From Candidatus Celaenobacter antarcticus (GTDB taxonomy: Bacteria > Cloacimonadota > Cloacimonadia > JGIOTU-2): 49,385 nucleotides of DNA. The number at the start of each line of letters is the position of its first letter. Within the stretch, counting starts at the first letter, position 1. Positions 608 through 16,583 of this stretch are shown piece after piece. Position numbers and translations under genes: made by a program. The notes below the pieces were generated by a model. The model did no database searches and was not told the origin of the DNA. It saw only the letters and a list, made by a program, of their open reading frames with translations. The DNA lies in assembly GCA_030765865.1 (NCBI GenBank), contig JAVCDK010000164.1:1-49385 (forward strand). The letters run 5' to 3'.

Positions 608-727
608 AAAAATGAGAGAAAGAGTAGTGAAAAAATAATAATTTATGAATCAAAAGAACATTTATGTGTAATTATAAATTTTAAAAATTCTAATTTCAAA
701 AGTAATTGTTTACAAGATAATGCTGGA

Positions 728-744
728 CAGGATACTCAATCCTG
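728..744. other. Small hairpin upstream of the first sensor gene
   Basis: CAGGAT at 728-733 pairs with ATCCTG at 739-744 around a five-base loop. It lies about 50 bases before the ATG at 792. A TATAAT-like hexamer at 783-788 is too close to that ATG to leave a leader, and no good -35 box is visible. It may be a leader RNA hairpin or chance. Confidence 0.25.
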
Positions 745-791
745 GAGATACTTGTATTTTAAGTCAACCAAAAAGAGATAGGTATAATATT

Positions 792-3700
792 ATGAAAAAA
801 AGATTTTTACTTATTATTTTCTTGATTTTCTTCAGTGCTTTTTCGTTATCAGCAAAAGAAAAATTACATTTGAAGGTCGGAACTTATGAAAATTCTCCCA
901 AGATATTTACAAATGAGTATGGTGAAATAAAAGGATTCTGGGCAGATATTACAAAATATATCGCCCATCAAGAAGGTTGGAAAATCGAATGGATTCATGG
1001 AAGTTGGGATCAATGCTTGCGGAGGTTAGAAAATAATGAAATCGATATAATGGTTGATGTAGGTTTAACTCCATCACGGCAAGAAAGATTTGCATTTTCA
1101 AATGAAACAGTACATTTGAGCTGGACAAGAATATATACGAGCACGGGATCTGATATTCAAACTATTCTAGATCTTGAAGGAAAGAGAATAGCCGGATTAA
1201 AGGGAAGTTTTGACCTGGATGGACCTGGAGGATTAAAAGCAGTTACAAAAAAATTCGAAGTCGATTGTGAAATCATAGAAATGGAAGACTATTTAAAGAT
1301 TTTCCAAGCTTTAGAAAATAATGAAATTGATGCGGGAATTACAGATAAAGATTTTGGAAATATCAATGATATAAATTTTAATATTGAAAGAACTCCAATT
1401 ATATTCCAACCGGCTCATATGCAATTTGCATTCTCAAAAGATTCTGAACTTACACCGCATCTTATTGAAAGAATCGACTACCAAATAAATAAGTTAACGA
1501 ATGATAAAAATTCTATTTATTACAGGTCGATGGATGATTATTTGGTTGGATTTAAAAAGATTACTATTTTCCCTATTTGGCTAAAAATAACAATAGCGAT
1601 TATATTAGCATTTGCACTAATCTTCTTCATTTTTATATTGATTTTAAAAAAACAGGTAAACCAAAAAACGCGTGAGCTTAGACTAGACATCGCCAAGCGA
1701 AAAAGAGCAGAGGAGAGAATTGAACAACTTAATCTTGTGCTGTATTCTATACGTAATGTTAACCAGCTCATCACAAAAGAAAAAGATCGTACCAAACTCA
1801 TCAAAGGAGCATGTGAAAACCTTGTTGAAACCCGCGGTTTTTATAGTACATGGATTGTTTTATTGGACGAATCGGGTAAGTTTATCACAACTGCTGAAGC
1901 TGGAATAGGCAAAGATTTTTTACCTCTAATTGAGCTTATGAAAAGCGGTAAGATAACAGCTTGCGGGAAAAGTGCTTTAAAACAAAAAGATATAGTTGTA
2001 ACCGACAAACCGATAAACATATGCAAAGATTGTCCGATTTCTGGAAAATATGGAGAAAGAGGGGCAATGACAATCCGGCTGGAATATAAAGGGAAAATTT
2101 ACGGATTATTGTCTGTTTCAGTATCAAAAGTACTTATAAAAGATGAAGAAGAACAAAGCTTATTTAAGGAAATCGCAAGTGATATTGCATTTGCGCTGTA
2201 CAATATTGAAACTGAAGAGGAAAGTAAAAGGATTGTGGATGAACTGCGAGCAAGTGAGGAACGGTTCCGCGCTGTGGTGGAGCACTCCCACGATGGCATT
2301 TTCATTATAGGCAACGATTACAAGTTTATCTATGTAAACGATAGGTTTTGCGAAATATTGGGCTACACCCGCGAGGAAATCATTGGTCACGACTTCAGAA
2401 AGTTCCTGGATGAGGAGAGTAGAGAACTGGTTTCAGAGAGATATATTAAAAGGCAGAGAGGAGAGATTGTATCTTCCAGATATGAATTCGACATTGTCAG
2501 AAAAGACGGCGAAAAACGACATGTTGAAATAAGCTCCACTGTTGTTAAAGATTCAAAAGGAAACATAAAAACAATAGCTCAGATTCTCGACATAACCGAG
2601 CGCAAGCAAGCGGAGTTTGCCGTAAAAGAAAGATTAAAAGAGTTAAGCTGTCTTTATGGTATTTCTAAAATTATCGAAATTTCAGGTCTTTCTCTAGAAG
2701 AAATTTTCCGCAGAATTGTTATACTGGTTCCTGCCTCCTGGCAATATTCCGAAATTGCTGTATGCCGAATCATTGTAGATGAAGTAGAATACAAAGAACC
2801 AAACTTCAAGAAAACCGACTGGATGCAAAGCAAAAAGATCAAAGTTGCCGGCAAGAATGTAGGTATTATCGAAATCTATTATCTGGAAGAAATGCCTGAT
2901 CTTGACGAAGGACCTTTCCTGAAAGAAGAGAGATTGGTCCTTGATGCCGTAGCTGAGCGCATTGGAAGCATTTTTGAACGCATGCAGGCAGAAGAAGCGC
3001 TAAAACAAAGTGAAAAGAATTACAGAATTTTATTTGATAATATGAGTGAAGGGATTTTTGTTCTTGATGCTGAAACACAGAAAGTAGTACTTGCTAATAG
3101 GGCAATTGCACAAATCTATGGATTCGATTCTGATGCAGATACGGTTAATATAAATCCAATTGATTTCATTTTGCCGGAAGACAAGGAGGAAGTTTACAAG
3201 ATCATTGCTGAAGATATGTTTCAAAATGATTTACAGCAGATCAATGAATTCCGCTCGCTTACCAATGACGGAAGAGAAATATGGATAAGTGCGGTTGGTG
3301 TAAGGACAGACTATAAAGGAAGATTGGCAGGTTTAATTTCCGTCAGAGATATCACCGAACGCAAACAGGCAGAGGAGTTTATACGTACTCAGGCGGAAGT
3401 AGCCAAAAATATGGCAGAGGGATCTTACATTGTAGGAATGCATGACGTTATTATCCGCTGGGTAAGTCCAAAATTTGAAACTATATTTGGATATGAATCC
3501 GGCGAAATGACCGGCAAGCATGCTTCTATAGTGAATGCTCCCACTGATTTGACACCTGAAGCCAGAGCAGAAGAAATAATGACTGTGGTACGCAAGACGG
3601 GAGAATGGTATGGCGATGTGAATAACATAAAAAAGGATGGTACAACTTTCTGGTGTTATGTCAGTGTTTCTGTTTTTAATCATCCGAAGTTTGGAGAAGT

Positions 3701-4262
3701 TCTGCTGGCTGTCCATACAGACATCACGGAACGCAAGCAGATTGAAGAAGTTTTAAAAGATAATGAAGATAGATACAGACAGATCTATCAATTTTCACCT
3801 GATTCGGTTATTATCCATGATATGGATATGAATATCTTGGATGCCAATAATAAGGCAGTCGAAGAGTTTGGCTATTCAAAAGAAGAACTACTCAAAAAGA
3901 AGATATTTGATTTACATCCCGAGACAGAATTGAAACATTCCGCCCAAGTGTTGGATGCTATGAAGAAAAAAGAGATGATGACGGTAGAGACAGAGTTTGT
4001 GAGGAAAAACGGTTCTGTATTTTTATCCGAATCAACTCCATGCAAATATACGCTTGGAAGCAAACCGATAATTCATGTTGTTATTCGAAACATAACGGAG
4101 AAGAGAAAAATTGAAGAAGATATTAAAAAGAGAATGAATGAGCTTGAAATTTTTAATGATATTACTGTGGGAAGAGAATTAAAAATGCTTGAATTGAAAA
4201 AAGAAATTAATGAATTGCTCAAGAGAATGGGCAAAAAAGAAAAATATGAAATCGTGGAATGA
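792..4262 (+). CDS. Membrane sensor: periplasmic solute-binding domain, GAF and four PAS domains, no kinase domain
   Basis: I chose the ATG at 792 over an earlier in-frame ATG at 720. The later start gives a clean signal peptide (MKKRFLLIIFLIFF, cleavage after SLSA near residue 21). The 1156-residue product then has a family-3 periplasmic solute-binding domain (about 24-255), a membrane helix (262-286) and a GAF-type domain with a CKDCP cysteine motif (318-475). After these come a PAS (487-610), a degenerate GAF-like stretch (625-745), three more PAS domains (755-880, 885-1005, 1005-1120) and a charged coiled-coil tail starting TVGRELKMLELKKEINEL. Most PAS units end in DITERKQAE. No H-box or HATPase domain is present. 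Proteins of this class presumably bind a periplasmic ligand, such as an amino acid, and pass the signal to a separate kinase. The next gene but one (5483-8743) is a candidate partner. The tail looks native rather than truncated by the adjacent repeats. Confidence 0.88.
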   Translation: MKKRFLLIIFLIFFSAFSLSAKEKLHLKVGTYENSPKIFTNEYGEIKGFWADITKYIAHQEGWKIEWIHGSWDQCLRRLENNEIDIMVDVGLTPSRQERFAFSNETVHLSWTRIYTSTGSDIQTILDLEGKRIAGLKGSFDLDGPGGLKAVTKKFEVDCEIIEMEDYLKIFQALENNEIDAGITDKDFGNINDINFNIERTPIIFQPAHMQFAFSKDSELTPHLIERIDYQINKLTNDKNSIYYRSMDDYLVGFKKITIFPIWLKITIAIILAFALIFFIFILILKKQVNQKTRELRLDIAKRKRAEERIEQLNLVLYSIRNVNQLITKEKDRTKLIKGACENLVETRGFYSTWIVLLDESGKFITTAEAGIGKDFLPLIELMKSGKITACGKSALKQKDIVVTDKPINICKDCPISGKYGERGAMTIRLEYKGKIYGLLSVSVSKVLIKDEEEQSLFKEIASDIAFALYNIETEEESKRIVDELRASEERFRAVVEHSHDGIFIIGNDYKFIYVNDRFCEILGYTREEIIGHDFRKFLDEESRELVSERYIKRQRGEIVSSRYEFDIVRKDGEKRHVEISSTVVKDSKGNIKTIAQILDITERKQAEFAVKERLKELSCLYGISKIIEISGLSLEEIFRRIVILVPASWQYSEIAVCRIIVDEVEYKEPNFKKTDWMQSKKIKVAGKNVGIIEIYYLEEMPDLDEGPFLKEERLVLDAVAERIGSIFERMQAEEALKQSEKNYRILFDNMSEGIFVLDAETQKVVLANRAIAQIYGFDSDADTVNINPIDFILPEDKEEVYKIIAEDMFQNDLQQINEFRSLTNDGREIWISAVGVRTDYKGRLAGLISVRDITERKQAEEFIRTQAEVAKNMAEGSYIVGMHDVIIRWVSPKFETIFGYESGEMTGKHASIVNAPTDLTPEARAEEIMTVVRKTGEWYGDVNNIKKDGTTFWCYVSVSVFNHPKFGEVLLAVHTDITERKQIEEVLKDNEDRYRQIYQFSPDSVIIHDMDMNILDANNKAVEEFGYSKEELLKKKIFDLHPETELKHSAQVLDAMKKKEMMTVETEFVRKNGSVFLSESTPCKYTLGSKPIIHVVIRNITEKRKIEEDIKKRMNELEIFNDITVGRELKMLELKKEINELLKRMGKKEKYEIVE

Positions 4263-4263
4263 A

Positions 4264-4462
4264 GACTCGAGTTCACAAGAACAGGCGGATGCCTGTGAGG
4301 GTGGACTTGAGACGGAATGATGATAAATTTGTTCATTCTGAAGTCCAGTCAAGCCTGAACTCCAGTCTGAGACACTGGACTTGAGACGGCAAGTAATGTG
4401 GAATCGCATTCTGAACTCCACCCCGAATAAATTCGGATGTGAAGTCCAGTCTGCTGAAGAAA
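4264..4462. repeat. REP-like palindromic repeat block upstream of the RAYT gene
   Basis: Three hairpin modules occur in order. The first is ACAGGC(GGAT)GCCTGT at 4281-4296. The second is a CCAGT/ACTGG module at 4341-4382, where AAGTCCAGT at 4341-4349 can pair with ACTGGACTT at 4374-4382, or TCCAGT at 4361 with ACTGGA at 4374. The third is CCGAAT(AA)ATTCGG at 4423-4436. The same modules in the same order recur downstream of the transposase at 5063-5452. The block is non-coding and separates the preceding sensor gene from the transposase. Confidence 0.85.
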
Positions 4463-4471
4463 GAGTAAAAT

Positions 4472-5047
4472 ATGCGATGTAAAAAAGAAGAATTTTTAAA
4501 AGGAGAATACTTTCACATCTATAATCGCTCAATTGATAACACATTGCTTTTTATACTTGATGATGATTATTTATATTTTCTTGATAAATTCAAATCAAAA
4601 ATTAAAATTTATCAAGCTTCTGTTTTTGCTTATTGCTTAATGCCAAATCACTTTCATTTTTTTATAAGACAAAATGATGATAAACCAGTATATCAAATTT
4701 TTAATGATGTCAATAACTCTTACGTAAAACACTATAACAATAAATATTCAAGAAAAGGACATTTATACAAAGGTCAATTGCAACATAAAAGAATAAAAAA
4801 TGATGAATACATTGTTTCTCTTTGCCAGTATATTCATTATAATCCCAAGAAAGCGGGATTAGTTAATGAACTTTCGGATTGGAAATATTCTAATTATCTG
4901 GACTGGATAGGCAAAAGAAATGGAATTTTGTTTGATGATGAATTGCTGAAAATATATTTTGAAAATGCTGAAATATATAAACAGCAGATAAGATATTATG
5001 AAGATTATATTAATGACAAGGAGTTTGTTGAACTCCTCTTTGATTAA
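4472..5047 (+). CDS. REP-associated tyrosine transposase (RAYT, Y1/HUH family)
   Basis: A 191-residue single-domain protein of the IS200-like Y1 transposase family, REP-associated branch. Family marks visible in order are GEYFHIYNRS near the N terminus, the metal-binding HUH motif in CLMPNHFHFFI, GHLYKGQL, and the QYIHYNPKKAGLV segment that carries the probable nucleophilic tyrosine. Such enzymes cut and join single-stranded DNA at REP hairpins and are usually single-copy 'domesticated' genes rather than active insertion sequences. Here the gene is bracketed by palindromic repeats sharing three hairpin modules, as expected for a RAYT with its own REP substrates. No strong ribosome binding site precedes the ATG; a GAAAGAG tract lies a few bases upstream. 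The gene looks intact. Confidence 0.92.
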   Translation: MRCKKEEFLKGEYFHIYNRSIDNTLLFILDDDYLYFLDKFKSKIKIYQASVFAYCLMPNHFHFFIRQNDDKPVYQIFNDVNNSYVKHYNNKYSRKGHLYKGQLQHKRIKNDEYIVSLCQYIHYNPKKAGLVNELSDWKYSNYLDWIGKRNGILFDDELLKIYFENAEIYKQQIRYYEDYINDKEFVELLFD

Positions 5048-5062
5048 CACTCGAATTCTACG

Positions 5063-5452
5063 ACTCGGGTTCACAAGAACGGGCGGATGCCTGTGAGAGT
5101 GGACTTGAGACGGAAATATAATGTGGTGCATTCTGAAGTCCAGTCAAGCCTGAACTCCAGTCTGAGACACTGGACTTGAGACGACAATGTAAAATGTTTG
5201 ACTTGAGTTTGAAAGATATGTACATTCTGAACTCCACCCCGAATAAATTCGGATGTGAAGTCCAGTCTGATGCACTGTACTTGAGACGGAAATATAATGT
5301 GGTGCATTCTGAAGTCCAGTCAAGCCTGAAATCCAGTCTGGGACACTTGACTTGAGACGACAATGTAAAATGTTTGACTTGAGTTTGAAAGATATGTACA
5401 TTCTGAACTCCACCCCGAATAAATTCGGATGTGAAGTCCAGTCTGCACGGTT
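5063..5452. repeat. REP-like block downstream of RAYT: two tandem units of 176 bp
   Basis: The block opens with about 50 bases (5063-5114) that repeat 4264-4316 with a few changes, including the GGCGGATGCC hairpin. Two tandem units then follow with a period of 176 bases; TTGAGACGGAAATATAATG begins at 5105 and again at 5281. Each unit has the AAGTCCAGT / ACTGGACTT module, a spacer containing AATGTAAAATGTTTGACTTG and the CCGAAT-AA-ATTCGG hairpin. The upstream block carries a shorter spacer at the equivalent place. The reverse strand reads open through much of this block, but only because the repeat lacks stops. Confidence 0.87.
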
Positions 5453-5482
5453 TGCACAAAAGAAATAAGTACGAGGTATATA

Positions 5483-8400
5483 ATGAAGAGTGACGATAAA
5501 ACCAGAGAACAGCTATTAAAAGAAATAGATATTTTAAAAGCTAAAATTTCCAAACTGCAAAAACCTGGGATCGGTCCAAAGAAAGCAAAAAAGGCATTGT
5601 TAATAGAGAAACAACTCTCTGAAAACATTCTTGAAACCGCTAATGCGTTTATCCTTACTTTGGATATAAAAGCCGATATTACTCTTTTTAACAAATTCGC
5701 AGAAAAACTCACTGGTTATAAAAAGGAAGAAGTTCTGGGAAAGAACTGGTTCGACCTTTTCATTCCAAAACGTATTGGCTCTAAAATTCCCGAAGTTTTT
5801 TCCAATGTTTTAAAAAAAATGCCGGAATTCTCTTCCTATGAAAATCCTGTTTTATGTAAAAATGGTTCTGAGAGATTGATAAGATGGGAAAATACTGTTC
5901 TGAAAAACGAGAATGGAGAAATATCTGGAGTTCTCAGTATTGGTAATGACATCACCGATCGCGAAAAGATAGAATCAAAGCTTAAGCAGAATGAGAAAAT
6001 GCTGCGACAAATTATCAATACCTCACCTAACTGCATCTTCGTGAAGGATCGGAACGGAATGTACATAGTAGTAAATAATAGAATGGCAGAGTTGCATAAT
6101 ACAACACCTGAAGAACTCGTTGGAAAGTACGATTACGAAATCGCACAAGAATGGTTTGAAACAGTAGATTATAACAAATTCAGAAAAACTGAACAGGAAG
6201 TTATCGACAACAAAAAAACATTATTAATAGATGAAGAACCCTTCGTTTACCATGGCGGAACTGAGCGATGGTTCCATACTACGAAGATTCCGTTTGAACT
6301 GGAAAATAATAAAAATTGTCTTCTGACTATATCAACGGACATCACCAAGCGCAAGCTGGCGGAGAAAGCTCTAAAAGAAAGCCAAGAACATTTTCACTCA
6401 GCGGTAAAGCATTCAGGAATTATTTTTACCCAAGTAGATATTGATTTGCGCTATAAATGGATTTTTAATCCTCATCCAAATTTTAATCCAAATAATTTGC
6501 TCGGCAAACGGGATGTTGAAATTGAAGATAACGAAGGAACAAGGGCACTGATGCAATTAAAACAACGAGTCATAAAAAATGGTCAAAAATGTCGTAAGGA
6601 CATTGTTTTTCCGGTTTCAGATGGACCTCGCACATATGATATTATTGCTGAGCCAGTTAGGGATACCGCTGGTAAAATTGTAGGCGTCGAAACGCTTTCC
6701 TTAGACGTCACCGAGCGCAAGAAGGCAGAAGAAACTCTGCGGGATAGTGAAAAGAACTTCCGTGATCTGACCGATAACCTGATGGATGGCGTGGCTATTG
6801 CAGATGAAAACGGTTACTATATTTATACAAATCCCAAATTTTCAGAAATCACGGGTTACAGCAGGGATGAACTGCTTAAAATGACCGGATGGGATTTTAC
6901 CCGTCCAGAAGATAGAGCAAAACTTAAACAAAGAATGAAAGACCACATGTCAGGCAAACCAATCCAGACGCGCTATAAGCGTATCATTATTAGAAAAGAT
7001 GGAACGGAAGTACCTGTCGAAATGTCAACAACAACAACAATCTGGCAGTGGAAGAGGCGTCCAATGGCGATTATTCATGACATCACCAAACGCAAGCAGG
7101 CAGAAAAAGGTTTGAAAAAACATGAACAATTTCTGAATAGTATATTAGAAAGTGTTCAGGATGGTGTCAGTGTACTTGATCCGGATCTTACCATCCGCCA
7201 TGTGAATGGAGTAATGAATAAATGGTATAAAGAAATTCTTCCTTTAGAAGGGAAAAAGTGCTATGAAGTCTATTATAATGCAGATAAGCCGTGTAAACCT
7301 TGCCCAACTCTTCGTTGTTTGGAATCCGCTAAAACAGAATGGAATATAGTACCGGGACTCACGGGAAGTCCTGTAGAGTGGATTGAACTTTTCAGTTACC
7401 CTATAAAAGACCCGAATTCGGATAAAATAACAGGAGTAGTCGAATTTGTTCGTGACATCACCGCGCGTAAACAGGCAGAAGAAAAACTTAAAGAAAATTC
7501 TTTAGAATTAGAAAAATATTATGTAAAAAGTGAAAAACAAAGAGTTGCTACTTTATCTGTTTTATCTGATCTCAATGAAACCACAAAGGAATTACGCTTA
7601 GAAATAGCCGGGCGTAAACGATCCCAGGCAATACAAAAAACATTATTTAACATTTCCAGTGCACTTAATACAACTGGTAGCATGACCGAGCTTTTAAGTA
7701 AGATAAGAGAATACCTTGGAAGTGTAATTGATACTACAAATTTCTATGTTGCTCTATACGATGAAAAAACCGATATGATCTCCCTTCCTTATGATGTCGA
7801 TGAAAAAGATGATTATGAAATATTTCCTGCAGGTAAGACAATTACAAAATATGTCATTGAAACCAGCAAACCTCTTTTTGCTACAAAGGATGTAGTAAGA
7901 AAATTAATTAAAAAAGGATTAATTGAAACAATTGGTTCTCTTTCTGAAATCTGGCTTGGTGTACCCCTTAGAATTGAGAACAAAGTAATCGGGGTTATTG
8001 CTGTTCAAAGTTACGATGACCCCAATCTTTATTCTGAGAAAGATATTGAAATTTTAACATTTATTTCAGAAGAAATTGCTCTTGTCATCCAACATATTCA
8101 AGCGGATGAGCAGATCAGGAAAGAGCTGAAAGAAAAAGGAATATTGTTGAGGGAGGTGCACCACAGGGTAAAGAATAATTTACAGGTAATATCAGGTCTT
8201 CTTCAACTTCAGCAGAATGAAATAACAACAAAAGAAGATGCATTAAAGGGTTTTGCATCAAGCCAGGACAGAATACTGGCAATGGCAAAAGCGTATGAAT
8301 TATTGTTAGGTTCGGAATATATGTCTGAGGTGAGTGTAGGGAAATATATTACATCACTTGCAGAGCAACTTAAATATAATTATGATAACCATAATAAGGT

Positions 8401-8743
8401 AAATATAACCTATTCTCTTGATGAACTCACAATCAGTATTGAGATATTAGATAGACTGGGACTTATATTGAATGAGATCATAACGAATGCGATAAAATAT
8501 GCTTTTGAAGGAAGAAATTCCGGGAACATTTATATAGAATTGAAAGATGCTGAAGGCCACATGGAGATAAAGATATCAGATAATGGAATAGGCATTCCCC
8601 CAAAGATTAAATTTCATGAGCCGTCAACCCTTGGTCTATCAATTGTTGATATGCTTACCCAGCAGTTACGGGGAACCATGAAATTAGACAGGAAGAATGG
8701 AACGAGTTTTACGCTGGTAATGCCGAAGGAATTAAATAATTGA
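5483..8743 (+). CDS. Cytoplasmic multi-PAS/GAF sensor histidine kinase, HisKA_2 type
   Basis: The 1086-residue protein has no signal peptide or membrane helix. An N-terminal coil (LLKEIDILKAKISKLQK) is followed by five PAS domains (about 45-165, 170-295, 297-415, 420-540, 545-665), a coil, one GAF domain (708-872), a HisKA_2 dimerisation domain and an HATPase domain. The phosphoacceptor motif is EVHHRVKNNLQ with His893-His894. The N box is LNEIITNAIKYAF and the G box is DNGIGIP. HisKA_2 kinases often signal to stand-alone receivers; the REC-bearing next gene is the only receiver in view. PAS5 has a CKPCP cysteine cluster that could bind metal or sense redox, which is inference. The start at 5483 has GAGG nine bases upstream. 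Its GAF DNA is close to identical to that of the next kinase. Confidence 0.93.
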   Translation: MKSDDKTREQLLKEIDILKAKISKLQKPGIGPKKAKKALLIEKQLSENILETANAFILTLDIKADITLFNKFAEKLTGYKKEEVLGKNWFDLFIPKRIGSKIPEVFSNVLKKMPEFSSYENPVLCKNGSERLIRWENTVLKNENGEISGVLSIGNDITDREKIESKLKQNEKMLRQIINTSPNCIFVKDRNGMYIVVNNRMAELHNTTPEELVGKYDYEIAQEWFETVDYNKFRKTEQEVIDNKKTLLIDEEPFVYHGGTERWFHTTKIPFELENNKNCLLTISTDITKRKLAEKALKESQEHFHSAVKHSGIIFTQVDIDLRYKWIFNPHPNFNPNNLLGKRDVEIEDNEGTRALMQLKQRVIKNGQKCRKDIVFPVSDGPRTYDIIAEPVRDTAGKIVGVETLSLDVTERKKAEETLRDSEKNFRDLTDNLMDGVAIADENGYYIYTNPKFSEITGYSRDELLKMTGWDFTRPEDRAKLKQRMKDHMSGKPIQTRYKRIIIRKDGTEVPVEMSTTTTIWQWKRRPMAIIHDITKRKQAEKGLKKHEQFLNSILESVQDGVSVLDPDLTIRHVNGVMNKWYKEILPLEGKKCYEVYYNADKPCKPCPTLRCLESAKTEWNIVPGLTGSPVEWIELFSYPIKDPNSDKITGVVEFVRDITARKQAEEKLKENSLELEKYYVKSEKQRVATLSVLSDLNETTKELRLEIAGRKRSQAIQKTLFNISSALNTTGSMTELLSKIREYLGSVIDTTNFYVALYDEKTDMISLPYDVDEKDDYEIFPAGKTITKYVIETSKPLFATKDVVRKLIKKGLIETIGSLSEIWLGVPLRIENKVIGVIAVQSYDDPNLYSEKDIEILTFISEEIALVIQHIQADEQIRKELKEKGILLREVHHRVKNNLQVISGLLQLQQNEITTKEDALKGFASSQDRILAMAKAYELLLGSEYMSEVSVGKYITSLAEQLKYNYDNHNKVNITYSLDELTISIEILDRLGLILNEIITNAIKYAFEGRNSGNIYIELKDAEGHMEIKISDNGIGIPPKIKFHEPSTLGLSIVDMLTQQLRGTMKLDRKNGTSFTLVMPKELNN

Positions 8744-8761
8744 GAAAGGTAACATGTTAAT

Positions 8762-8795
8762 AGTTGCGAGTTACGAGTTGCAGGTTGCGAGTGGC
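8762..8795. repeat. Short degenerate tandem repeat (GTTGCGAG type)
   Basis: Three imperfect copies of a roughly ten-base GTTGCGAGT unit lie directly before the 120-bp tandem array. It has no coding content. Confidence 0.5.
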
Positions 8796-9154
8796 AAGAT
8801 GGATACAGCCACTAAGTCTCTAAGACTCAAAGGAAGATAATAATGAATAAATATAAAACCGAAACGGAACCAAAAGGTTAATAAATGAACTTAGAGTCTT
8901 TGTGCCTTTGTAGCAAGATAGATTCAGCCACTAAGTCTCTAAGACTCAAAGGAAGATAATAATGAATAAATATAAAACCGAAACGGAACCAAAAGGTTAA
9001 TAAAATGAACTTGGAGTTTTTGTGCCTTTGTGGCAAGATGGATTCAGCCACTAAGTCTCTAAGACTCAAAGGAAGATAATAATGAATAAATATCAAACCG
9101 AAAGGGAACCAAAAGGTTAATAAAATGAACTTGGAGTTTTTGTGCCTTTGTGGC
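8791..9154. repeat. Tandem repeat, about three copies of a 119-120 bp unit
   Basis: The unit recurs with periods of 119 and 120 bases: the CCACTAAGTCTCTAAGACTC segment recurs near 8809, 8928 and 9048. Copies differ by only a few substitutions and one indel. Within each unit CCTTTG pairs with CAAAGG, GTGGC with GCCAC, and AGTCT with AGACT, so each can fold as a nested hairpin. Related TTTGTGCCTTTGTGGC words are, to my knowledge, common in environmental genomes, so this may belong to a widespread repeat family. The array fills most of the gap between two sensor kinases. Confidence 0.9.
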
Positions 9155-9187
9155 TTTATTGTTACAAAATCCGATATTAGGAGCTAA
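8843..9187 (+). other. Chain of six mini reading frames inside the tandem repeat
   Basis: Reading the repeat in the direction of the genes gives alternating mini-ORFs: 8843-8881, 8885-8959, 8962-9000, 9005-9079, 9082-9120 and 9125-9187. The odd ones encode 12 residues (MNKYKTETEPKG, third copy MNKYQTEREPKG). The even ones encode 24, 24 and 20 residues beginning MNLE(S/F)LCLC. Each stop is two to four bases from the next ATG, and AAAGGAAG precedes each odd ATG. The last mini-ORF stops three bases before the ATG of the next kinase gene. Copies differ mostly by amino-acid-changing substitutions, which argues against selection on the peptides. Coding is therefore unproven; coupling of translation is a possibility. 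Confidence 0.3.
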
Positions 9188-9190
9188 TAA

Positions 9191-11596
9191 ATGAAAAAGA
9201 TCTTATTAATTGATGATGTTAAAGATAATTTGAGAGCAGCTAAAGAAGCGCTGGAGGATTTAATTCCCGATTGTCAAGTGATCACAACGCTATCAGGAAA
9301 AGAGGGGGTGAAATTAGCAAAAGAGGAACAGCCCGATACGATTATTTCGGATATCATTATGCCGGAAATGGATGGTATTGAAGTATGTAAGAGATTGAGG
9401 GAAGATGAAGCGACAAAATATATTCCCATAATCATACACACCGGAACGATAACTGATACAAAAACTCGCATACAATGTCTTGAAGCGGGTGCTGATGTAT
9501 TTCTGGCAAAACCAATCGATCCGGGGGAGCTTATTGCACAGATAAATGCGATGTTAAGGATAAAAGAAGCAGAAAATAAACTGCGAGCAGAAAGTGAAAT
9601 GTTAGATGAAGTTGTTAAAAAAAGAACGAAAGAAATTCAAAAAGTGAATAAGAAGTTAAGGCAAGACATTTCAGAGCGCAAGAAAGCAGAGAAATCCTTA
9701 GCTGAGAGCGAACAATTAAACAGGGCTGTGATCGAGCATTCTCCAATTGGAATCTCCATAAGGGATAAAAACGGCACATTTCTTTTATCCAATAATGCAT
9801 GGCAGAAACTTTGGGGATTATCTGATAATGAGGTTTCTGAATATCATAAACCAAGGAATAAACTCACTTTTGATGATAAGGATTCTTACCTTGGTGAGCA
9901 TTCGGATAATATTAATAAAGTATATAAGACTGGAGGAGAATATCATATACAGGACATAAAACTTATACGTGATGAAAAAGATAAAGCGGGATTTATATCA
10001 CAATATTTTTATGCTATTAAAGATGAAGAAAGAAATGTTCAAAGAGTGGTTATTTTGACAGAAGACATCACCGAGCGCAAGCAAGCGGAAGAAGCTCTGA
10101 AAGAAAGTGAAAGACAAATCCTCGCAATTTTTAATGATCCTAAAACATTTATAGGCATTTTGGAAACTGATGGTACCTTAAAAAGTGCAAATACTTCTGC
10201 TCTCACATTCATCGGAAAATCCATTTCTGATGTGAAGGGTGCTAAGTTCTGGGAAACACCCTGGTGGAATCATTCACCGGAACTTCAAAAAAAAGTAATA
10301 TCCGGTATTAGGAAAGCATCTGCAGGTGAAAGGGTGCACTTTGAGGCAGAACATATTGGAAAGAATAATGAAAGAATATTTGTTGATTTTTCAATCAGAC
10401 CTGTCAGAGACTCACATGGAAAGATTGAAAGTCTTATCGTAGAGGGAATTGACATCACCGAACGGAAGCGGGCGGAGAAAATACAAAAAACATTATATAA
10501 CATTTCCAATGCTTTGAATACAGTTGGTAATTTGCACGAACTCTTCATTAAAATAAGAGAATACCTGGGAAATGTAATTGATACGACCAATCTTTATGTT
10601 GCTTTATATGATGAAAAAACTGATTCTATCTCTCTTCCTTATAATGTTGATGAAAAAGATGATTATGAAACATTTCCTGCAGGTAAGACAATTACAAAAT
10701 ATGTCATTGAAACCGGCAAACCTCTTTTTGCTACAAAGGATGTAGTAAGAAAATTAATTAAAAAAGGATTAATTGAAACAATTGGTTCTCCTTCTGAAAT
10801 CTGGCTTGGTGTTCCCCTGAAAATTGAAAGCCAAATAATTGGTGTTATTGCGCTTCAAAGCTATGATGATCCAAATCTTTATTCTGAAAAAGATATTGAA
10901 ATTCTAACCTTTATTTCAGAAGAAATAGCACTTGCCATCCAACATAAACAGGCAGACGAAGAATTAAAGATAAATCGAGAGCGGCTTAAAACAGCGAATT
11001 CGATCTTACGTCATGACATAACAAATGACATTGTAGTAATAAAAAGTGCACTTGATATTTACCGTGATGAGAATGATGAAACAATGCTTGATGAGATCGA
11101 GAAACGAGTAGAGAAGAGTATAAATACGATTAATAAACAACGTGAACAAGAAAAATTCATAGATTCTCATTCAGATTTAGATGAATTCGAGATAGAAAAA
11201 GTAGTTCATGATATTATCCCTAATTTTCCTGACATAAAGATCAATGTTACCGGTAAAGGCACTGCTTATGCGGATAATGCAATTTATTCGGTGTTTGAGA
11301 ACATAATTGATAATGCAGTTAAACATGGCAAGACAACCAAGATGGATATTGATATTCGTTCAGACGAAGAGTATTGTGAGATCAGATTTGCAGATTATGG
11401 CACTGGCATACCAGATGACTTAAAATATAAGATATTCGATGAAGGTTTTTCTTATGGGAAAGCAGGGCATACCGGTATTGGATTGTATATTGTACAAAAA
11501 ACTATTGATGATTATGATGGATTCGTTCATGTTGAGGATAACAAACCGAATGGAGCAGTATTTGTAGTACGTTTGAGGAAAATTATTGAGAGATAG
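9191..11596 (+). CDS. Hybrid kinase: receiver, two PAS, GAF and HATPase domains
   Basis: The 801-residue protein begins with a CheY-like receiver (1-125). It has the acidic pair Asp8-Asp9, phosphoacceptor Asp54 in ISDIIMPEMDG, Thr84 and Lys107 in LAKP, so the receiver looks functional. A coil, two PAS domains (about 170-300 and 305-425), a GAF domain (430-592) and a kinase core follow. The H-box is atypical, LRHDITND with His608, rather than the usual HELRTPL. The N box is FENIIDNAVKHG, G1 is DYGTGIPDD and G2 is GHTGIGLYIV. With the receiver first, the protein probably takes phosphate from another kinase, plausibly the HisKA_2 kinase upstream, and relays through its own core. AGGAG sits seven bases before the ATG. 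Its GAF resembles that of the previous gene and its kinase core that of the next one. Confidence 0.93.
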   Translation: MKKILLIDDVKDNLRAAKEALEDLIPDCQVITTLSGKEGVKLAKEEQPDTIISDIIMPEMDGIEVCKRLREDEATKYIPIIIHTGTITDTKTRIQCLEAGADVFLAKPIDPGELIAQINAMLRIKEAENKLRAESEMLDEVVKKRTKEIQKVNKKLRQDISERKKAEKSLAESEQLNRAVIEHSPIGISIRDKNGTFLLSNNAWQKLWGLSDNEVSEYHKPRNKLTFDDKDSYLGEHSDNINKVYKTGGEYHIQDIKLIRDEKDKAGFISQYFYAIKDEERNVQRVVILTEDITERKQAEEALKESERQILAIFNDPKTFIGILETDGTLKSANTSALTFIGKSISDVKGAKFWETPWWNHSPELQKKVISGIRKASAGERVHFEAEHIGKNNERIFVDFSIRPVRDSHGKIESLIVEGIDITERKRAEKIQKTLYNISNALNTVGNLHELFIKIREYLGNVIDTTNLYVALYDEKTDSISLPYNVDEKDDYETFPAGKTITKYVIETGKPLFATKDVVRKLIKKGLIETIGSPSEIWLGVPLKIESQIIGVIALQSYDDPNLYSEKDIEILTFISEEIALAIQHKQADEELKINRERLKTANSILRHDITNDIVVIKSALDIYRDENDETMLDEIEKRVEKSINTINKQREQEKFIDSHSDLDEFEIEKVVHDIIPNFPDIKINVTGKGTAYADNAIYSVFENIIDNAVKHGKTTKMDIDIRSDEEYCEIRFADYGTGIPDDLKYKIFDEGFSYGKAGHTGIGLYIVQKTIDDYDGFVHVEDNKPNGAVFVVRLRKIIER

Positions 11597-11839
11597 AGGA
11601 GGAGGGTAGAGCGTGGAGAGAAATGGTGGTGGTAAATTAGGAAAGTTTAAATAATAGACTTAAGTTTCGAAGGAGTTGAAATTACTCAACAGTTAATCTT
11701 TTTATCTTTGCAATATTTCGTAACATAATTGATATTTATATATTTGCATATAAGTACAAGATTGGTTATTTAGGCTGCATTTTTATGGTTGACAAGGTTG
11801 TTTTGCATTTTATCGGCAGATACGAAAAAGCCAAATATG

Positions 11840-11864
11840 CTTTACCAAGCTGGGCTTGGTAAAG
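11840..11864. repeat. Perfect 11-bp hairpin, TTACCAAGC type
   Basis: CTTTACCAAGC at 11840-11850 pairs perfectly with GCTTGGTAAAG at 11854-11864 around a three-base loop (TGG). It shares its TTACCAAGC/GCTTGGTAA core with the hairpin at 20355-20382. No T tract follows it, so it is not an obvious terminator. Confidence 0.85.
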
Positions 11865-11910
11865 AGTTGGGTGCGGTTCTCTTTACCAATTCCATCTCTC
11901 TCCTCTTCCT

Positions 11911-11936
11911 CTTTACCAATTCCCCAATTGGTAAAG
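11911..11936. repeat. Perfect 11-bp hairpin, TTACCAATT type
   Basis: CTTTACCAATT at 11911-11921 pairs with AATTGGTAAAG at 11926-11936 around a CCCC loop. A single arm CTTTACCAATTCC also occurs 30 bases upstream at 11881. The shared CTTTACCAA arm marks it as a sibling of the hairpin at 11840. Confidence 0.85.
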
Positions 11937-12074
11937 CAATAACAGTGAAGTTAGAAAATTTTCATTACAACTGCGAAACTTAAATAATTAAATTTGACAA
12001 GCGGTTAGTATTAATATGAACTCTACTAAATAATAAGTATTGAGAAAAAGCCCACATTAAATAAGGAAAAGTGT

Positions 12075-15000
12075 ATGAAAAAGAAAACAAGTGAAGAACT
12101 TAATAATGAACTGAAGGGACTACCTAAGAAAATTGTTGATTACAAAAAGAAAGAGATTGAGAGTAGTGTAGTAGAACAAAACCTGAAAGAAAGTGAAAAA
12201 AAATATAGAACTTTAACAGAAAACCTGCGTGTAGGAGTTTTTAGAAGTACTGTCGGACTAAAGGGTAAGTTTATCGAAGTTAATTCTGCTTTTGTAAAAA
12301 TGTTTGGGTATAGGAGTAAAGAAGAAATTTATAAATTTAATGTATCAGATTTATATAATAATCCGGAAGATAGAAGAAAGTTCAACCGGACACTATTAGA
12401 AAAAGGGTTCCTAAAAAATGAAGTTTTAAATTTGAAAAAAAAGGATGGCACAAGCTTTGTTGCATTAGTTAATACGAATGCTGTTAAAGATGAAAAAGGA
12501 GAGGTAATTTATTTTGATGGAGTTATTAAGGACATCACCGAGCGCATGCAGGCGGAGGAGACACTCAAAAAATCTGAACAGAATTTGAGAGCTCTTTTTA
12601 TAGCGATGACTGATATAGTTCTGGAATTAGATCGGGAAGGAAGATATATCAATATAGCACCGACTTCACCTGACCTTCTTTATAAACCTGCATCTGAAAT
12701 TTTGGGAAAAACCTTACATGAAATCTTCCCACTTAAGGAAGCTGATAAATTTATGTCTGTGATTCATAAATCTCTGGATGAGGATAGAATTGTGAAGATA
12801 GAATATCCTTTAAAAATTAAAAATAAAATTATTTGGTTTGAAGGGAGAGCAACACCCAAAACATCAGATACGGTTCTTTTTATTGCTCATGATATCACCG
12901 AGCGCAAAAATGCAGATGAAAAGATTCGCGAGAGTGAAGAGAAACTACGAAGCTTTATGAATACAACAACTATTGGCGTCTGGTGCTTCAAACCTGAGTT
13001 CCCAATAGATATTACTCAACCTAGCGAAAAACAAATCGATGAATTCATGAAATCTGTTTGTATTGAATGTAATGAAACCTATGCTATAATGATGGGAATA
13101 ACCAAAGATAAAATCATTGGTATGATGCTTTCTGAAGTTCTGCCGGATTGTGAAGAAACCAGGGAATATTTCAGAGAGTTTATTAAAGGAGGATACAAAC
13201 TTGATGGTGGAGAAACTCACGAAATATCGAAAACTGGAGAAGAAAAATACTTCTCTAATTCCTTCTTTGCTACAATAATTGATAATATGCTGTTACAAGC
13301 GTGGGGAACTCAAACAGACATCACCGAACGAAAACAAGCTGAGGAAACTCAAAAAATTTTATATAATATTGCGCATGCAATCAATACTACTAAAACTCTC
13401 AACGAGCTTTACAAAACAGTTCATATACAACTTGGTAAAATTATTGATACGAAAAATTTCTATATTGCTTTATATGATAAAGAAAATGATACTATTTTAT
13501 TTCCCTATCATATTGATGAAAAATCAAAATTTATTTCATATCCAGCGAGAAAGACATTAACTGCTTATGTCATAAGGACAGGTAAACCACTTTTGGGTAC
13601 GGAACAAGTTATAGGGCAATTGATTGAAGCCGGAGAAGTAGGAAAAGGAAAAAAGGGAACTAGTTGCAAAATTTGGCTGGGTGTTCCCTTAACTGTTGAT
13701 AATGTAGTCATCGGTGCAATTGCAGTTCAAAGTTATACTGATGCTTCTATTTATTCGGAGAAAGATTTAGAAATTTTGGAATTTGTTTCAGATGAAATTG
13801 CACTTGCTATCAGAAATAAACAAGCAGAAGAATCCCTGCTGGAAAGCGAGGAGAAATTCAGATACCTTGTAAAGAATTCCAATGATGTATTTGTGAAAAT
13901 CGACGAGAATGGGAAAGAGACTTATGTAAGCGATTCTGTTGAACGTATTACGGGTTTTTCTCCAGCAGAAATAATATGGCATTCTGGTTTTGAATTCATA
14001 CACCCCGACGATATTGATCATATGTCGAAATCGCTCTCGAAATTACTCAAAATTCCAGGGGGAACTATACGGGATGAATACAGACACCAGCGAAAGGGTG
14101 GTGGCTGGGTTCATTTAGAAGCGATAGGAGAAAACTATCTGCATGAACCGTCAGTGCGCGGCATTGTACTTAATGTACGTGACATCACTGAGCGCAAGCA
14201 GGCAGAGCGGGTCCAATTAGTTATTTATAAAATTGCTAAAGCTGTAAATACCACTAAAAATATTGATGAACTATATAATACTATACATCAGCTTCTGAAT
14301 ACTGTTATTGATGTGAAAAATTTTTATATTGCACTTTATGATGAAGATGAAAACACCATATCTTTCCCATACTATATTGATGAAAAGGATACGAAACCTG
14401 AGCCTGTTCCCAAAGAACTATCAAAAGGTCTAACTGAGTATGTAATAAGGACTGGCAAGTCATTATTAGCTCCTAAGGAATATTATTTAAAACTCGCAAA
14501 GGAGGGTAAAATAGAGATTTCGGGATCTATATCTGAGGTATGGATCGGAATTCCCTTCCGGATTGAAAATAAAATTGTTGGTATCGTATCTGTACAAAGC
14601 TACAAAGATGCCTCTTTTTATAATAAAAAGGATTTAGAGATTTTAGAACTCATTTCATACGAGATTGCAATTGCTATAGAACACAAGAAGACAGAACAAA
14701 TTAATCTTCGTCTATCTGAAAGCATTCGTAATGCTCGAGATGGGATAATCCTTACAAATCCTGAAAGTCGAATAACTTATATTAATCCTGCTTTTGAAAA
14801 AATGAGTGGTTATACACAGGGCGAACTCCTGAACAAAGATCCGGCAGACCTTATTGTAACAGAAGATACAACTGCTATTGCCAATGAAATCCGCTCCGCT
14901 GTTAAGACAAAAGGTGAGTGGCAAGGAGAGCTGTATTGCAAACGCAAGAATGAAGATATCTATCCAATTGACACACGTGTATTTGCAATTAAAAATGAAA

Positions 15001-16583
15001 AAGGTGAAATTGTAGAAATAGCAGCCATCCAGCAGGACATAACTGAGCGTAAGCAGGCGGAAGAAAAGATCAGAGAAAGCGAGAAATCTTTTAAAGATAT
15101 ATTCAATAATGCAATTGATGCAATCTACATACAAAATATTGATGGCAAGTTCCTCGACGTAAATCAGGGAGCTGTTATTATGTATGGTTATACAAAAGAA
15201 GAAATGATTGGTAAAACGCCGGATATAATTGGTGCTCCTGGAAAAAACGATCTTGAAATGGTTGGAGAATGTATAAAAAAAGCATATAATGGTGAACCAC
15301 AACAATTTGAGTTTTGGGGGCAAAGAAAAAACGGAGAAGTCTTTCCAAAAATTGTTAGACTTTCAAGTGGCTACTATTTTGGTAAAAAAGCAATATTCGC
15401 TTTTGCTATTGATATCACCGATCGCAAGCAGACAGAGGAGATTTTAAATAAGGAACTTCGTAAGCGAAAAATACTCCAAGATGTGGCTTTGACTCTTCTT
15501 GAAACAGATTTAAACAAATCTATCAAAACTGCTTTAAAGGCAATCAGGATAGGACTAGATCTTCCAAAAGCAATGCTAAGAATAAGAGTTGATCCTAACA
15601 ATGATTGGCAAATTGTAGATTGTAGAGAAAATTTGCTCGGAATTGAATCATGTTTACCTACAAACAAAAGAGGGGAAGAGGCAATTCTGGCTTATGAAAA
15701 AAAAGAAATTTCCGTTGTTAATGATATTCGAAAAAAATATTGGTATGAAAAACATAAAGATATTTGGGAAAAAACAAAAACACTTGCTTATCTCAGCATA
15801 CCTTGTATAGATCATTCTGGTGATGTTAAGGGTATCCTTTACCTTCATGATGATAAAGTACGCATATGGAGTGATGATGACAAAAACATCGGGGAAGCAG
15901 TAGCAGCAGAATTAGCTTCAATCATCAATCGTAAGCATGCAGACGAAGAATTAAAGATAAATCGAGAGCGGCTTAAAACAGCAAATTCGATCTTACGTCA
16001 TGATATTACAAATGACATTGTAGTAATAAAAAGCGCACTTGATATTTACCGTGATGAGGATGATGAAACAATGCTTGATGAGATCGAGAAACGAGTTAAG
16101 AAAAGTTTAAATACGATAAATAAACAACGTGACCAGGAACGGTTCATTGATTCTCATTCAGATTTAGATGAATATCAAATGGAAAAAGTGGCTTATGATA
16201 GCATCAAAAATTTCCCTGACATAAAGATCAATGTTGCCGGTACAGGCACTGCTTATGCAGATAATGCAATTTATTCGGTGTTTGAGAATATAATTGATAA
16301 TGCAGTTAAACATGGCAAGACAACTAAGATGGATATTGATATTCATTCAGACGAAGTGTATTGTGAGATCAGATTTGTAGATTATGGCATTGGCATACCT
16401 GATGAATATAAACATAGAATATTCGATGAAGGTTTTTCTTATGGAAAAACAGGGCATACCGGTATTGGCTTGTATATTGTATGGCAGACAATTGAAGATT
16501 ATGATGGGGAAGTGTTTGTTGAGGATAATAAACCGCAAGGAGCAGTATTTATAGTACATTTGAGGAAAACTATTGAGAGATGA
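12075..16583 (+). CDS. Giant cytoplasmic sensor kinase: six PAS, three GAF, HATPase
   Basis: This 1502-residue protein has no membrane segment. Domain order by eye is N-terminal coil (1-35), PAS (40-155), PAS (158-280), PAS (283-420), GAF (422-585), PAS (590-712), GAF (713-880), PAS (883-1005), PAS (1008-1125), GAF (1130-1285) and kinase core (1285-1502). The H-box is LRHDITND with His1309, the N box FENIIDNAVKHG, G1 DYGIGIPDE and G2 GHTGIGLYIV. The GAF domains carry the same FYIALYD and EIWLGVPL-type segments as the neighbours. The kinase core is nearly identical in DNA and protein to that of the 9191-11596 gene, so the two probably arose by duplication and may share phosphotransfer partners. 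AAGGA precedes the ATG. No receiver is fused, and ligands are unknown. Confidence 0.93.
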   Translation: MKKKTSEELNNELKGLPKKIVDYKKKEIESSVVEQNLKESEKKYRTLTENLRVGVFRSTVGLKGKFIEVNSAFVKMFGYRSKEEIYKFNVSDLYNNPEDRRKFNRTLLEKGFLKNEVLNLKKKDGTSFVALVNTNAVKDEKGEVIYFDGVIKDITERMQAEETLKKSEQNLRALFIAMTDIVLELDREGRYINIAPTSPDLLYKPASEILGKTLHEIFPLKEADKFMSVIHKSLDEDRIVKIEYPLKIKNKIIWFEGRATPKTSDTVLFIAHDITERKNADEKIRESEEKLRSFMNTTTIGVWCFKPEFPIDITQPSEKQIDEFMKSVCIECNETYAIMMGITKDKIIGMMLSEVLPDCEETREYFREFIKGGYKLDGGETHEISKTGEEKYFSNSFFATIIDNMLLQAWGTQTDITERKQAEETQKILYNIAHAINTTKTLNELYKTVHIQLGKIIDTKNFYIALYDKENDTILFPYHIDEKSKFISYPARKTLTAYVIRTGKPLLGTEQVIGQLIEAGEVGKGKKGTSCKIWLGVPLTVDNVVIGAIAVQSYTDASIYSEKDLEILEFVSDEIALAIRNKQAEESLLESEEKFRYLVKNSNDVFVKIDENGKETYVSDSVERITGFSPAEIIWHSGFEFIHPDDIDHMSKSLSKLLKIPGGTIRDEYRHQRKGGGWVHLEAIGENYLHEPSVRGIVLNVRDITERKQAERVQLVIYKIAKAVNTTKNIDELYNTIHQLLNTVIDVKNFYIALYDEDENTISFPYYIDEKDTKPEPVPKELSKGLTEYVIRTGKSLLAPKEYYLKLAKEGKIEISGSISEVWIGIPFRIENKIVGIVSVQSYKDASFYNKKDLEILELISYEIAIAIEHKKTEQINLRLSESIRNARDGIILTNPESRITYINPAFEKMSGYTQGELLNKDPADLIVTEDTTAIANEIRSAVKTKGEWQGELYCKRKNEDIYPIDTRVFAIKNEKGEIVEIAAIQQDITERKQAEEKIRESEKSFKDIFNNAIDAIYIQNIDGKFLDVNQGAVIMYGYTKEEMIGKTPDIIGAPGKNDLEMVGECIKKAYNGEPQQFEFWGQRKNGEVFPKIVRLSSGYYFGKKAIFAFAIDITDRKQTEEILNKELRKRKILQDVALTLLETDLNKSIKTALKAIRIGLDLPKAMLRIRVDPNNDWQIVDCRENLLGIESCLPTNKRGEEAILAYEKKEISVVNDIRKKYWYEKHKDIWEKTKTLAYLSIPCIDHSGDVKGILYLHDDKVRIWSDDDKNIGEAVAAELASIINRKHADEELKINRERLKTANSILRHDITNDIVVIKSALDIYRDEDDETMLDEIEKRVKKSLNTINKQRDQERFIDSHSDLDEYQMEKVAYDSIKNFPDIKINVAGTGTAYADNAIYSVFENIIDNAVKHGKTTKMDIDIHSDEVYCEIRFVDYGIGIPDEYKHRIFDEGFSYGKTGHTGIGLYIVWQTIEDYDGEVFVEDNKPQGAVFIVHLRKTIER

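Follow-up and report, generated by a model that had tools for sequence, protein, structure and literature searches.

The modular build of sensor kinases is well established, but the way in which a module is cleanly exchanged can rarely be seen. In bacterial two-component systems sensor modules reassort between kinases, a process known as one of domain architecture (for example, PMC4603909); at the locus described here the break-point is a short DNA seam with a codon signature. Modular polyketide synthases likewise consist of repeated modular genes that swap modules at a conserved stretch through recombination and gene conversion (PMC10661043), but their hot spot lies in the long homologous KS domain, whereas here it spans 27 bp between modules that otherwise lack DNA similarity. 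The protein side of the seam corresponds to the DIT motif, a widespread C-terminal PAS/LOV peptide believed to link the domain with the helix behind it (PMC3183031, PMC9098866). That motif has been described as a peptide, whereas we report a nucleotide-level pattern and a break-point role. Neither turned up in the literature searched, which covered few subscription papers and therefore speaks only weakly for novelty.

We analysed a contig of 49,385 nucleotides (the window, about 49 kb) from the Cloacimonadota bacterium Candidatus Celaenobacter antarcticus, whose genome is a 2.7 Mb draft in 175 contigs (91% complete, 5% contamination). The window carries rpoBC and fusA, and four PAS genes occupy its positions 0.7–16.6 kb (Table 1). 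PAS, GAF and HATPase_c domains, as expected of PAS multi-sensor histidine kinases, are present in the second to fourth genes, with HisKA_2 in the second. Domain matching found PAS and GAF domains and no kinase core in the first gene. The kinase cores of two adjacent genes (10936-11594 and 15923-16581) are 89% identical, as though the output end had recently been copied onto differing sensor arrays.

Repeats lie beside these genes. At 4264-5447, repeats of up to ~190 bp (copies 79-98% identical) with the motif CTCCAGTCTGAGACACTGGACTTGAGACG are found on both sides of a 191-residue open reading frame (4472-5047) that matches the IS200-like Y1 transposase family, an arrangement that recalls a REP-associated transposase and the repeats around it. 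Intergenic 120-bp tandem repeats (window 8736-9154, L128 17715-19259 and L130 1415-1532) follow the PAS kinase and recur downstream of kinases on C25 and C145.

Table 1. PAS genes, exchanged modules and seams in the window
Feature	Position	Strand	Basis
PAS-kinase-like gene: SBP_bac_3 sensor, GAF, 4 PAS modules	720..4262	+	domain matches
Seam; left edge of swapped block	2589..2615	+	seam list + block alignments
789-bp module common to C153 kinase gene, 91.6% identical	2589..3377	+	seam to seam, unrelated flanks
Seam; right edge of blocks common to C153 and C25	3348..3374	+	seam list + block alignments
Seam; left edge of block common to C65	3720..3746	+	seam list + block alignments
377-bp PAS module common to C65 kinase gene, 88% identical	3720..4096	+	seam to seam-like end
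PAS histidine kinase: PAS modules, GAF, HisKA_2, HATPase_c	5483..8743	+	domain matches
Seam variant DITDREKIE; first codons likewise GC-rich	5948..5974	+	sequence
Seam	6338..6364	+	sequence
Seam	6704..6730	+	sequence
Seam; left edge of block common to G096 (other family)	7079..7105	+	seam list + alignment
Seam; right edge of G096-shared block	7454..7480	+	seam list + alignment
Response regulator-PAS-PAS-GAF-HATPase kinase	9191..11596	+	domain matches
Seam-like DISERKKAE at response regulator/PAS junction	9665..9691	+	sequence
Seam	10064..10090	+	sequence
Seam; left edge of GAF block found in several kinases	10451..10477	+	block alignments
PAS/GAF multi-sensor kinase, 6 canonical seams	12075..16583	+	domain matches + seam list
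Seam	12531..12557	+	sequence
Seam	12891..12917	+	sequence
Seam; left edge of shared GAF block	13317..13343	+	block alignments
Seam; left edge of GAF+PAS block common to same-genus G001	14181..14207	+	seam list + alignment
Seam; right edge of G001-shared GAF+PAS block	15036..15062	+	seam list + alignment
Seam; left edge of block common to G002	15411..15437	+	seam list + alignment

A codon signature at the ends of PAS modules

Each PAS module closes with a 27-base seam encoding DIT-E-R-K-Q-A-E. The four genes contain 16 canonical seams, with the peptide DIT-x-R-K-x-A-E or close variants, together with the variant at 5948, and the genome as a whole contains 43. D, I and T are each conserved at 0.98 identity across these 43 modules, a value that is partly by construction because the modules were picked by the motif. 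A search with GACATCACCGAGCGCAAGCA allowing up to 3 mismatches returns 15 matches in the window, all on the forward strand and all inside PAS genes, with 0 expected from shuffling. The more diverged sites are 9665 (GACATTTCAGAGCGCAAGAAAGCAGAG) and 5948 (GACATCACCGATCGCGAAAAGATAGAA).

Third codon positions of the seam differ sharply from those around it. GC3 at the D-I-T-x-R-K codons is 0.62-0.81, compared with 0.29 gene-wide, and the edges are abrupt (0.25 at codon -1, 0.81 at the Asp codon 0 and 0.25 at codon 9). Across the 43 seams, 251 codons end in G or C, against 103.9 expected from synonymous usage in the same genes (z=17), and the codons used are minority choices in these PAS genes. Background codons are used at further well-conserved positions of the PAS domain (N 0.81, G 0.78, E 0.77 and G 0.72 identity), which rejects a general codon constraint at conserved peptides. 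Translational optimisation is also rejected, as the highly expressed genes rpoB, rpoC, fusA and tuf lack the seam codons. A control motif, HELRTPL, is absent from this genome. Mean pairwise identity between seams is 0.735, where peptide and codon usage predict 0.701 (sd 0.006). The anomaly lies mainly in its direction, an inverted codon preference, and less in extreme uniformity.

A first-pass annotation of this DNA had reported about 17 recurrences of a GC-richer seam whose codons are held far more constant than the peptide requires. The recurrences are borne out, with all positions other than 9665 and 5948 matching within ~10 bp, as is the GC enrichment, and codon bias does not explain the seam codons. 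The constancy was overstated, the rise in identity being real and modest.

The signature varies among genomes. The present genome has a GC3 excess at the seam of +0.39, compared with +0.17 for the rest of its family and +0.24 for a second family pooled with further members of the class; the GC-rich seam is missing from same-genus G003, from G038 and from the PAS genes on C4 and C9. In a scan of 84,980 genomes, with selection on AT-rich flanks and unconditioned on seam codons, AT-rich genomes of other phyla have seams at background (+0.04, not significant), so a universal DNA signal is rejected. GC-rich genomes of the Desulfobacterota type carry the same seam word, built from their common codons. 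All 33 near-copies of the seam word in the present genome fall on five PAS-kinase contigs; there are no copies outside them, and a general DNA signal of the Chi kind is rejected. Many PAS seams of Planktothrix G138 (for example C1:3296311-3296337) read GATATTAGCGATCGCAAACAAGC, which contains GCGATCGC, the HIP1 palindrome, and is another DNA word on the same PAS seam.

Exchange of PAS modules between genes

PAS genes of this genome have blocks of DNA in common, with otherwise unrelated flanks. In addition to the blocks in Table 1, C25 and C65 share one that runs seam to seam at 93% identity, and a GAF block begins at the seam in several kinases whose upstream PAS modules differ. The block at 14181-15036 matches a gene of same-genus G001 seam to seam, and the neighbouring modules differ. 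Identity at the seam jumps from ~0.25-0.35 to ~0.9 when measured in 30-bp steps over 13 junctions.

Of 43 informative block ends, 18 are located within the seam of both genes compared (null mean 0.13, maximum 4, over 2000 shifts). Among 28 genomes of the phylum, the corresponding counts are 48 of 130 within genomes (null 0.6) and 179 of 587 between genomes (null 1.2), the junctions being partly non-independent. Start-type block ends pile up on the seam, and the rest of the linker holds only ~5. Module break-points are thus concentrated in a conserved stretch, as at the polyketide synthase hot spot. Taken together, the alignments strongly support PAS module swapping at the seam.

Seam-bounded modules are also common to different genera and families. 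Between families the modules are 84-98% identical, whereas fusA aligns only partly, at ~73%. Module transfer between families is therefore likely, although misbinning may inflate it, because these are metagenome data and most cross-family partners are on contigs of <7 kb; in 3 pairs (84-87% identity) both contigs are at least 14 kb.

The seam itself is less similar between partners than the module that it bounds. At junctions, third bases of the seam are no more alike than in seams paired at random, apart from a slight increase on the side of the block, whereas the adjoining block stands at 0.75-0.9; over non-redundant junctions, identity is 0.786 in the seam and 0.864 in the block (P=2e-4). 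Among 122 seams with homology on one or both sides, there are 117 junctions, and both sides are shared in only 5. In these 5, third positions are identical at 18 of 34 sites, compared with 136 of 184 in the flanks (P=0.02), so that the seam is the more diverged. Judged by these comparisons, the seam in this phylum is reshuffled, and ordinary purifying selection does not maintain it. A mixed set drawn mostly from other phyla shows no such difference between seam (0.776) and flank (0.785). Because seam bases do not follow the modules on either side, crossovers fall within the seam, with no special conservation by descent. Site-specific recombination at a fixed point, of the attC, shufflon or dif type, is rejected, as the bases of the seam show little linkage to the module on either side.

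Crossing over at the seam and alternative readings

We propose that the seam is probably where crossovers occur in a form of domain shuffling that works without a dedicated enzyme. Because the C-terminal end of a PAS module encodes the DIT motif and the start of the linker helix, modules all end in nearly the same 27 bp, with unrelated DNA around it. The break-points show that whole PAS or PAS+GAF cassettes are exchanged in frame at a position that leaves both domains whole; general recombination between these short islands, within the genome and with incoming DNA, would carry out the exchange. Each exchange cuts within the seam or at its border, as the block alignments show, modules travelling as blocks and seam bases reassorting among genes, and the seams thereby behave as a shared recombining pool. 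The weakest step is the last: modules whose seam lies near the pool consensus may recombine most, keeping a GC-rich consensus despite AT pressure. The word may stay GC-rich because seams that match propagate preferentially, or because it is brought in from GC-rich donors.

The 27-bp island may serve as homology for general recombination or for annealing. The number of identical base pairs that bacterial RecA needs (MEPS) is put at 30 at most, and a block of identity between heterologous flanks recombines comparatively well (PMC8918686). The present seam pairs speak against such a role: their exact runs have a median of 8 bp, with 8 of 990 pairs reaching at least 21 bp and one reaching 33. Since seam pairs rarely attain RecA-length identity, either another form of annealing would be used or seams would diverge after the event.

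Selection at the level of domains might suffice, with breaks falling anywhere, survivors being those cut near a domain boundary, and the codons an unrelated oddity. We consider this unlikely. Domain shuffling in sensor kinases is known, the seam sits at a natural domain end and selection for intact domains favours cuts close to that end just as a crossover zone would; some seam-bounded blocks are likewise present where the GC-rich seam is lacking, with 7 of 23 ends in G133 and 4 of 31 in same-genus G003. Yet block starts cluster on the 27-bp seam and hardly touch other linker that is equally suitable, and seam-bounded ends are far fewer where seam codons are ordinary. With a slightly wider motif, which raises the count here from 18 to 21 of 43 ends, the comparison is with 14 of 100 in three genomes that lack the signature, one of them a complete Planktothrix chromosome (P=3e-5; P=0.001 for the same-genus relative alone), and is limited by the greater age of the comparator blocks (median identity 70-72% versus 81%), whose break-points are harder to date. 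Because GC-rich seams track seam-bounded swaps and break-points hit the seam and not other linker, we infer that seam DNA may itself cause or guide recombination. The first-pass suggestion of a recombination site through which modules are swapped and homogenised thus holds for the swapping, with block ends in the seam far above chance, and is conditional for guidance by the DNA. Homogenisation is apparent only as the modest gain in uniformity, the seams being scrambled between genes and not inherited with the module.

GC-biased gene conversion at recombining repeats, raising GC at all synonymous seam sites without any role for a specific sequence, would account for a sharp-edged excess tied to the recombining stretch. 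It is rather improbable as the sole cause, because C and G are not interchangeable: ACC outnumbers ACG by 27 to 4 (P=4e-4), CGC outnumbers CGG by 29 to 2 (P=4e-6) and GCG outnumbers GCC by 14 to 1 (P=1e-3), against near-even background choice. It may contribute to maintaining GC.

Very little probability attaches to selection on the codons themselves, whereby minority GC-ending codons slow the ribosome so that one PAS module folds before the next. The seam codons of this genome are indeed in the minority and lie exactly at the domain end, but Desulfobacterota-type genomes use common codons there, AT-rich genomes of other phyla follow background, same-genus G003 and the C4 and C9 genes lack the signature, and seams shared on both sides are more diverged than their flanks, not less.

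That an assembler or binning step joined modules of different genes or strains at short seam repeats is scarcely credible: every Cloacimonadota dataset analysed is a draft metagenome assembly and some contigs stop at seams (G008:C29:4-30, G094:C139:8-34), but the exact runs between seams are mostly short, block copies differ by ~10% and so are both real, the pattern repeats in independent assemblies, and the window contig is 49 kb long and includes rpoBC and fusA. Those two contigs, and G002:C12 near its end, break off no more than ~10 bp from the seam, which is what one would expect had the assembler met alternative modules.

Returning to the crossover zone, a bolder form of it is possible, although we lean against it: the seam would be a self-perpetuating recombination handle, a DNA word in a protein linker that spreads through recombining matches and sustains a phylum-wide exchange pool of PAS kinases for new sensor combinations. 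The present analysis places the joint of PAS module exchange within 27 bp. Its codon signature is a mark of genomes in which recent swaps are frequent, and chimeric PAS sensors could be cut and joined at the seam as a natural boundary.
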